From: Odoribacter sp. Z80
GTDB taxonomy: Bacteria; Bacteroidota; Bacteroidia; Bacteroidales; Marinifilaceae
Assembly (NCBI RefSeq): GCF_009935865.1
Contig: NZ_QWEL01000002.1
Coordinates: 186,001-250,000, forward strand
Direction: 5' to 3'
DNA: 64,000 nt
This document shows, one piece after another, positions 30,782 to 32,283 of the stretch (positions within the stretch are counted from its first letter, which is position 1; each line of letters begins with the position of its first letter). The position numbers and the translations under genes were made by a program. The notes beneath the pieces are model-generated. The model made no database searches and had not been told where the DNA came from. It worked only from the letters and a program-made list of their open reading frames with translations.

Positions 30782-32197
30782 CTATTTTTTCAACCGGTAG
30801 CCTCTCACCCAGTCAATCTCCATGCAGGCAGGAATTCCTTTGTCAGCAGGTGTTTCCGTAGCTCCCAAAGAAAATACAATATACATCGGAACATCCGGTA
30901 TATTCTCTTTCTCTTCCTTCACCACCATATCATTTATCATCCACACCATTTTCTCTGCCGTCCACTCCAGGGTAAATATATAATATTCATTCGCCAACTC
31001 CAGATCGGGTATCAATTGAATATCATTTGTAACAGCCGCCCGGTAATGAAATACCCGCCCCATGCTCACTCCATCGGCCTGGCATTTCATAACTTCCACA
31101 TGGGGAAGATCCGCATCCCCCAACATCCAGAAACAGGAAGTAACCGCTCCCCGGTTCAGTTTGACTTTCGCTTCAAAACGACCGTAACATTGCCGGAAAG
31201 AAGCGGCCGTACTAATCATCCCCGAAGTATAATCATACTTCCGCTCCCGGATTCCCAATTGCCCGTCCCAATACTTTCCAATAATGGATTCTTTCCGGAA
31301 ATTCAAACACACAGCACTATGACCGAAAGAAACATTATCAGATGAATACAACTGTACGTCTTTTCCGACGCCATAAGTATCATTGAGAAAACGTTCCCCG
31401 GCATAATAACGGGTTATCCATTTGGTATGGTCCAAACTCCCCTGGTTAAACTCGTCCTCAAAAACCAGTTTCCAACGGCGCATACTATTAAAATAAGGGT
31501 CCTGAAGCAAGGCATTGTATTTTACGATGTCCGGACGTTTTGCCAGTGACTCATATTCCTCCAGCAATTTATAATCATCCGTAGTCAGGTACCTCTTCTT
31601 ATCCAACAAAAATTTCCTGTTCTTCTTAAATTCCTCAGATTGGACAAAAGCCGTCAACTGCTCAAATTCCTGAGGTAATTTTGTATTTTTTACTTCGTTA
31701 TATTCCTTAAAACTCCGGAGATTCTCAAAACGAATCAAAGCGGCAATCTTGGGATGGCGGATAATCTGCCGGTAAGCATTATACTCCACGGCATGCAGTT
31801 TCCGGTCAAAATCCGCCGATTTTACAATCACCTTTAACTTGATATACTCCTGATATTCTTCAGTATGCTTCACTCTTTCATACCCCTGCAACTCCTGGGA
31901 ATCATGAATCAGCAAATAAGACTTCAACTTCCTCAACTTCAACAAAGCCTTATACTGCTTCTCAGCGGTATAATATTTACTGTCTTTATATGCCAATGCT
32001 TCGATTTCTTTTTTCCTTTTCTTAAAAGCAGGCTCCTTTATTATACCGTCCAATTCTTTATATCTGGCCAGTTCTGCACTTTTTTCCACTTTCACAAACA
32101 ACTCTTCATCTTCCCGGAATACCGCCCGAAAAGTTTCCGCTTCGTGAGTCGTACGAAGTATCTTATGCTTAGAAAATAAAAACGAAAATAATCCCAT
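30782..32197 (-). CDS. GH16-like domain protein with N-terminal helical repeats, probably catalytically impaired
   Basis: The 471-residue protein begins MGLFSFLFSKHKILRTTHEA and has no signal peptide. Residues 15-225 are a charged helical region with about four weakly repeated units: a Tyr-x-x-Leu element, then Phe-x-x-x-x-x-x-Leu, then Tyr (for example LARYKELDGIIKEPAF, LQGYERVKHTEEYQEY). Residues 225-471 look like a GH16 jelly roll (VFEDEFNQGSLDHTKW, YTSGMISTAASFRQCYGRFEAK). At the catalytic strand, where GH16 has ExDxxE, I read HVEVMKCQADG, so one Glu is kept and the others are lost. It may bind glycans or proteins, not cleave. Cytoplasmic location is inferred. Confidence 0.7.
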   Translation of the reverse strand: MGLFSFLFSKHKILRTTHEAETFRAVFREDEELFVKVEKSAELARYKELDGIIKEPAFKKRKKEIEALAYKDSKYYTAEKQYKALLKLRKLKSYLLIHDSQELQGYERVKHTEEYQEYIKLKVIVKSADFDRKLHAVEYNAYRQIIRHPKIAALIRFENLRSFKEYNEVKNTKLPQEFEQLTAFVQSEEFKKNRKFLLDKKRYLTTDDYKLLEEYESLAKRPDIVKYNALLQDPYFNSMRRWKLVFEDEFNQGSLDHTKWITRYYAGERFLNDTYGVGKDVQLYSSDNVSFGHSAVCLNFRKESIIGKYWDGQLGIRERKYDYTSGMISTAASFRQCYGRFEAKVKLNRGAVTSCFWMLGDADLPHVEVMKCQADGVSMGRVFHYRAAVTNDIQLIPDLELANEYYIFTLEWTAEKMVWMINDMVVKEEKENIPDVPMYIVFSLGATETPADKGIPACMEIDWVRGYRLKK

Positions 32198-32233
32198 ACA
32201 TTCTATTTTAACGCATATTACTGCATTCAGAAA

Positions 32234-32241
32234 CAAAGGTA
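32234..32241 (-). promoter_or_regulatory. -7 element upstream of the GH16-like gene
   Basis: Minus strand TACCTTTG, 36 bp before the chosen start at 32197. It overlaps a longer reading frame and so favours the internal start. Confidence 0.5.
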
Positions 32242-32245
32242 ATGC

Positions 32246-32283
32246 AAAAAAAATGAAAAGTAAAAGGTAAAAAGTAAAAAGTA
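32246..32283. repeat. A-rich heptad-like tract upstream of the GH16-like gene
   Basis: The plus strand shows AAAAGTAAAAGGTAAAAAGTAAAAAG split into near-7-bp units (GTAAAAA). On the minus strand the T-tracts lie immediately upstream of the -7 element. Confidence 0.6.

Follow-up and report, generated by a model that had tools for sequence, protein, structure and literature searches.

A GH16-like protein family of Bacteroidales with a replaced catalytic site and a modular helical stalk

The 64,000-nucleotide stretch of Odoribacter sp. Z80 analysed here (the window; positions 186,001 to 250,000 of contig NZ_QWEL01000002.1, from a source assembly of 2.56 Mb in 47 contigs) encodes, on its minus strand, a protein of 471 residues in which a helical stalk precedes a jelly-roll head of glycoside hydrolase family 16 (GH16). 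Judged from sequence, the family of this protein is a conserved and repurposed pseudoenzyme under constraint, the constraint having been measured in relatives and not in the window copy. This assignment was made because the catalytic glutamates have been lost, new residues have become fixed in the head and purifying selection was detected in the relatives. We further propose, with a probability of about 0.6, that these proteins are cytoplasmic stalk-and-head pseudoenzymes, whose dead glucanase head would bind, but not cut, a ligand that is probably a glycan. The gene and its parts are listed below, all on the minus strand.

30782..32197, minus: whole gene, 471 amino acids plus stop, ATG start (translation of the open reading frame; start common to near relatives)
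32150..32197, minus: residues 1-16, a short and rather hydrophobic segment before T17, with no recognisable signal peptide; residues 1-11 modelled with a predicted local distance difference test score (pLDDT) below 50
32084..32149, minus: residues 17-38, first and longest helix (predicted structure)
31880..32080, minus: residues 40-106, helical repeat 1 (repeat profile, independent E-value 2.3e-15)
31679..31861, minus: residues 113-173, helical repeat 2 (repeat profile, independent E-value 8.9e-9)
31490..31675, minus: residues 175-236, helical repeat 3 (repeat profile, independent E-value 1.3e-14)
30785..31480, minus: residues 240-471, GH16-like jelly roll (Pfam, PDB sequence matches, predicted structure)
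31085..31102, minus: residues 366-371, former catalytic strand HVEVMK (aligned to E-x-D-x-x-E of laminarinases)

The GH16-like head and its former catalytic site

An earlier note, made from the DNA sequence alone, had recognised a C-terminal jelly roll of the laminarinase type, and this was borne out by all comparisons. The window protein scored 40.7 bits against Pfam PF00722 (GH16; cut-off 22), and laminarinases in the PDB were matched by sequence with a best E of 4e-9. An AlphaFold2 model of the whole protein (61 sequences in the alignment; pLDDT 92.0, predicted template modelling score 0.74) contained the jelly-roll fold, which was superimposed on laminarinase 6jhj with a Z of 26.5 and a root mean square deviation of 1.5 over 203 residues. 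The best Foldseek match of the head was 4dfs (E 1e-17). Head length was steady across the family, at 194-245 residues with a median of 232.

The catalytic motif of GH16 enzymes is E-x-D-x-x-E. In the window protein, the positions of the laminarinase nucleophile, the Asp and the acid-base residue are aligned with H366, E368 and K371, respectively, and all three former catalytic positions are thus replaced. The profile alignment placed E-I-D-I-M-E of the laminarinases over H-I-D-I-L-K of the family. The earlier note had read this strand as E-x-M-x-x-Q (E368, M370 and Q373); the degeneracy of the site was correctly seen, while the register lay two residues too far downstream.

To define the family, 140 loci were scanned, some of them duplicates. 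After leaving out L002, an ordinary GH16 gene of the same genome, and four frames truncated at the 5' end, 135 proteins remained, which were reduced at 90% identity to 92 non-redundant relatives, including the window protein. Position 366 was occupied by H in 61 of these, Q in 18, E in 11 and R in 2, giving H, Q or E in 90/92. Position 368 was D in 74 relatives, the middle Asp being missing in 18, and position 371 was K in 49, R in 35, E in 3, D in 2 and another residue in 3, so that K or R was found in 84/92. The commonest triplets were H-D-K and H-D-R (24 each), followed by E-D-K (10), Q-D-K (8) and Q-D-R (6). None of the 92 relatives carried Glu at both 366 and 371. As a control, we used 16 GH16 sequences that do not belong to the family, comprising L002, nine sequences from the phylum and six from viral contigs, and all 16 had E-D-E in the same alignment columns. 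L002 (G000:C1:98692-99051) has an intact E-D-E site and a start that looks signal-like by eye. The six viral contigs L205-L210 likewise encode GH16 domains in which E-D-E is intact.

Other positions of the head have become fixed in the family to residues that are rare or absent among the control sequences. These include Y275 (86/92 of the family vs 0/16 of the controls), Q336 (88/92 vs 1/16), K344 (92/92 vs 1/16), N422 (91/92 vs 2/16) and P434 (87/92 vs 0/16). W310 (91/92 vs 0/16) and G315 (92/92 vs 0/16) belong to a loop that is missing from most of the controls. S443 was found in 74/92 relatives, at a position where all 16 controls have Asn. W260, S325, G339, W357 and W412 are core residues that the family shares with most of the 16 active-type GH16 sequences.

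Codon comparison of the whole protein gave ratios of nonsynonymous to synonymous substitution rates (dN/dS) of 0.04-0.12 in seven of ten pairs of relatives, including 0.09 for L007 and L008, the pair nearest to the window protein on the tree. The possibility that the gene is simply decaying was therefore rejected at the family level, based on the dN/dS of the relatives and the newly fixed residues. The suggestion in the earlier note of a glycosidase-derived protein devoid of its catalytic residues is well supported by these data: no relative has both glutamates, all controls are intact, new residues are fixed and the relatives are under purifying selection. In the relative from Odoribacter laneus, the three former catalytic positions are occupied by R, E and K.

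The helical stalk and the N-terminus

Sixteen helices, mostly of 9-13 residues, were predicted over residues 17-239, and the stalk modelled alone reached a pLDDT of 93.0. The helical part hence spans about 223 residues rather than the roughly 210 estimated earlier. It is built from a unit of about five helices that is about 66-69 residues long. A repeat profile was seeded with three 69-residue units of L100, a relative of 900 amino acids, and iterated on the same 92 proteins. Before iteration, the L100-derived model detected 267 units in 91/92 proteins; the iterated model detected 310 units in 92/92 proteins and none in 92 shuffled copies. With three copies found in the window protein, the N-terminal helical repeats described in the earlier note were confirmed.

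The 92 proteins carry between one and nine repeats: 63 have three, 9 have five, 7 each have two or four, 4 have six, and single proteins have one and nine. The length of the stretch in front of the head mostly fell into groups of 109, 158-188, 222-262, 295-343, 379-402, 452-457 and 665 residues. Close relatives on the head tree differed in copy number; L070, for example, has three repeats, and L084 and L085 have four each. This tree has an arbitrary root, and several of its long branches are unreliable. The two family alignments consisted of 61 sequences picked by length. The repeat alignment comprised 64 units, i.e., the three of the window protein and 61 from a random draw of 75 of the 261 qualifying units; the third unit of the window protein did not pass the filter and was included manually.

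The stalk module appears, from sequence and model searches, to be unmatched to any described family. No Pfam family covered the repeat in 61 stalks, for which we obtained scattered weak hits with at most two members per listed family and a best E of 0.00045, taken as chance. The stalk model had no significant fold match in the PDB (best E 0.58), and its best match in a viral structure library had an E of 0.38. Among chains pre-ranked by Foldseek, the best Z was 6.3, a level that the tool calls common, and the top rows were mostly coiled coils. The whole stalk matched no PDB sequence up to E 10. When a single repeat was searched against PDB sequences, calsequestrin was obtained with a best E of 0.053 and was dismissed as a chance match. 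The earlier note had suggested FF-like or TPR-like repeats. Neither was present among the four Pfam families found at E up to 1 for the window protein, and the search with the 61 stalks, which listed 25 families at E up to 0.1, did not yield them either. This part of the suggestion was not upheld, although a likeness in fold may still exist. The stalk resembles FF, TPR and other helical repeats in being an array of short helices, but differs from them in the size and helix number of its unit.

A single open frame on the minus strand was confirmed for 30782-32197. The ATG at 32197 was shared with near relatives in the locus comparison, and in L003 (73% identical) a stop codon is separated from the aligned ATG by a single codon. 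The extension of the gene to 32283 in the earlier note was thus not supported. A TTG start at 32236, proposed by the mechanical reading-frame call, was rejected, as it is not shared and the L003 stop precedes the ATG. It is made less likely still by a TAnnTTTG box (32234-32241, minus strand), which we take to be the Bacteroidota -7 promoter motif and which overlaps the TTG.

No recognisable signal peptide was found, by eye or by hydropathy, in the window protein or in 90 others (91 proteins in total, L030 being left out for its aberrant start), in agreement with the earlier note. The top hydropathy over 19 residues within the first 43 was at most 1.34 in all 91, and thus below the value of 1.6 commonly taken to mark a membrane helix. 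An upstream start or hidden signal peptide was rejected on the basis of this hydropathy and of the stop codons that shortly precede the common ATG in relatives. T17 and E21 are conserved, the mean hydropathy of residues 2-17 is 0.16 compared with -0.29 for the stalk, and the first 20 residues carry a net positive charge in 75/91 proteins. A weak contact of the N-terminus with the membrane is possible.

Distribution and gene neighbourhood

Matches were found in 31/56 genomes of the host family and in 3/8 of the host genus. Across the order, 134/295 genomes matched at E 1e-3, ordinary GH16 included, and in 75/295 the best E was no higher than 1e-50. At E 1e-20, 10/395 genomes of the phylum matched, and the nine besides the own genome covered the GH16 part only. 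The repeat profile matched the own genome alone among 296 genomes of the phylum, and the stalk profile matched 39/149 genomes of the order. Repeats without a head were not found in these 39 genomes, as judged by eye, all listed places lying in head-matched genes except in G144, where a stalk fragment runs into the contig end. In G098 the match to the head is truncated, and in G151 it contains a stop. A second, shorter relative (G016:C11:273215-274021; a frame of 353 residues, 43% identical over residues 201-469) was observed in a genome that also has a full-length one.

The best 80 of 117 loci were kept, and most of their names belonged to Bacteroidales or Bacteroidota. Four of the 80 were named Chlorobiota (L063, L086, L090 and L109) and one Cytophagaceae (L099). 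On the tree, these loci fall between rows of Bacteroidales, which points either to wrong names for the bins or to transfer of the gene. By locus names, the family appears to be confined almost wholly to one order, the Bacteroidales. A phage origin was rejected, as none of 50,697 phage records covered 80% of the protein and the two that matched did so at residues 401-468. A plasmid origin was likewise rejected: none of 72,556 plasmid records covered 80%, and of the 225 that matched, the 20 listed did so mainly on the GH16 part. Six loci matched the GH16 part in a scan of viral contigs. The phage and defence family libraries gave no hits for the window protein, and among the titles listed in searches of an open-access library (20 of 59 in one case), none looked like this family.

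The window and 24 of the 80 named loci have a TonB-like gene (named by eye) directly upstream, and the neighbours differ elsewhere. BLAST clustering (E 1e-8) of these loci and the window revealed no conserved operon partner, a search in which distant relatives could be missed, and 16 selected neighbour clusters looked by eye like unrelated genes. In the Marinifilum group, efflux-like genes (named by eye) adjoin on the other strand. In L072 and L074, a protein of 126 residues that resembles SiaC/DUF1987 by eye is encoded directly upstream.

Ten related genomes were checked at the site between the TonB-like gene and comF. The gene was present in two (G046 and G048) and absent from six (G042, G043, G044, G045, G006 and G017), in which the ends of the TonB-like and comF matches are 23-96 bases apart, leaving no room for a gene. 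The two flanking genes were on separate contigs in G012, and neither was matched in G047. As the gene is absent from this site without a trace, it is dispensable and leaves or arrives cleanly. The neighbours change between lineages, and no pathway therefore supports a given ligand. The remark in the earlier note that the neighbours are uninformative holds, since they vary across lineages and the TonB-like gene and comF stay where the gene is absent.

Possible function and relation to known proteins

According to the proposed mechanism, the head would be a GH16 jelly roll that, by alignment, lacks the catalytic glutamates and has acquired new fixed residues, and its old catalytic cleft would bind a glycan or other ligand without cleavage. 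The stalk, which sequence and structure prediction describe as all-helical modules of about 66 residues, one to nine per protein and three here, would serve as a spacer or scaffold. It would hold the head at a length that changes by gain or loss of modules; the change in copy number was observed, and its purpose is our suggestion. The rather hydrophobic N-terminal 10-16 residues might make contact with the cytoplasmic membrane from the inside. A more specific and rather doubtful version is an intracellular glycan reader with a modular ruler, in which, throughout the order, the N-terminus would anchor a dead glucanase at the inner membrane and one to nine copies of a new module would allow cytoplasmic glycans, such as lipid-linked precursors or storage polysaccharide, to be read at a set distance.

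The head might instead be a mere structural cap or a protein-protein interaction domain, with the helical array scaffolding other proteins and no sugar bound. This is unlikely, yet it carries some weight: no sugar-related neighbour is conserved across lineages (by eye), the array varies in length and was found only with a GH16-like head, and the window protein has all three former catalytic positions replaced. What speaks for a binding site is that the fixed head residues, several of them aromatic, are unlike those of active GH16, suggesting by alignment that a site is conserved; this argument is limited by the invariant W260, W357 and W412, which are shared with active enzymes and may be core. 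The restricted replacements at positions 366 and 371, together with the other newly fixed residues, could also be taken to indicate an enzyme of altered chemistry that uses His/Gln, Asp and Lys/Arg in place of E-D-E. We regard this as highly improbable, given that position 366 switches between H, Q and E even inside clades and that the middle Asp is missing in 18 relatives, unlike a catalytic set; to our knowledge, there is no precedent for such an enzyme. Export by a route without a classical signal peptide, with the protein working outside the cytoplasm like ordinary GH16, is likewise very unlikely. It would fit the signal-like starts of ordinary GH16 in the phylum (8/9 controls by eye, plus L002), the TonB-like envelope gene upstream and the adjoining efflux-like genes of Marinifilum. 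The family, however, lacks a recognisable export signal, its N-terminus is conserved but short, and the TonB-like gene stays in place where the family gene is absent.

Several observations weigh against the cytoplasmic binding protein that we prefer. The ligand, the partner and the cell location are its conjectural parts, as is the binding or scaffold role put forward in the earlier note. The earlier note had also placed the protein in the cytoplasm; the lack of a recognisable signal peptide agrees with this and is the single observation that points there. An uncharged stretch of 14-17 residues lies close to the start in four of the 91 proteins. Synonymous divergence was saturated in three of the ten pairs, including both with the window protein, for which the proportions of nonsynonymous differences were 0.17 and 0.23 and those of synonymous differences 0.77 and 0.83. 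The middle Asp is replaced by E, Q or V in all members of the window protein's clade of nine, in which the function may be weaker or changed. The copy of O. laneus (L030, L037) lacks about 37 jelly-roll residues just before W310 and may be degenerating. Five of the eight genomes of the genus, two of them less than 90% complete, have no match.

The family shares with laminarinase-type GH16 (6jhj, 4dfs and 3azx) the jelly-roll fold and the core W260, S325, G339, W357 and W412. It differs from these enzymes in that all 92 members lack Glu at one or both catalytic positions, in the helical stalk in front, in the new fixed residues and in the absence of a recognisable signal peptide. Gram-negative binding proteins and beta-GRPs, which are secreted, can be set beside the family by description, not by sequence, and the likeness is one of kind only. 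These proteins, a precedent from insects, are glucanase-derived and non-hydrolytic, have lost at least one catalytic residue and bind microbial cell-wall components (PMC2375007). The glucanase-like domain with lost catalytic residues is the feature in common. The present proteins, in contrast, are bacterial, have no recognisable signal peptide and carry a helical array in front.

The Pfam GH16 score clearly exceeds its cut-off, and automatic annotation would therefore probably label the gene, like its relatives across dozens of genomes, a family 16 glycosylhydrolase and class it with the enzymes that degrade polysaccharides. The alignments indicate that the family is not ordinary GH16, and it is probably not secreted. 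If these proteins do bind sugars inside the cell, they would be the bacterial equivalent of the glucanase-derived, non-hydrolytic sensors known in insects, and an example of a secreted enzyme fold that was recruited to the cytoplasm and mounted on a modular stalk of new origin.
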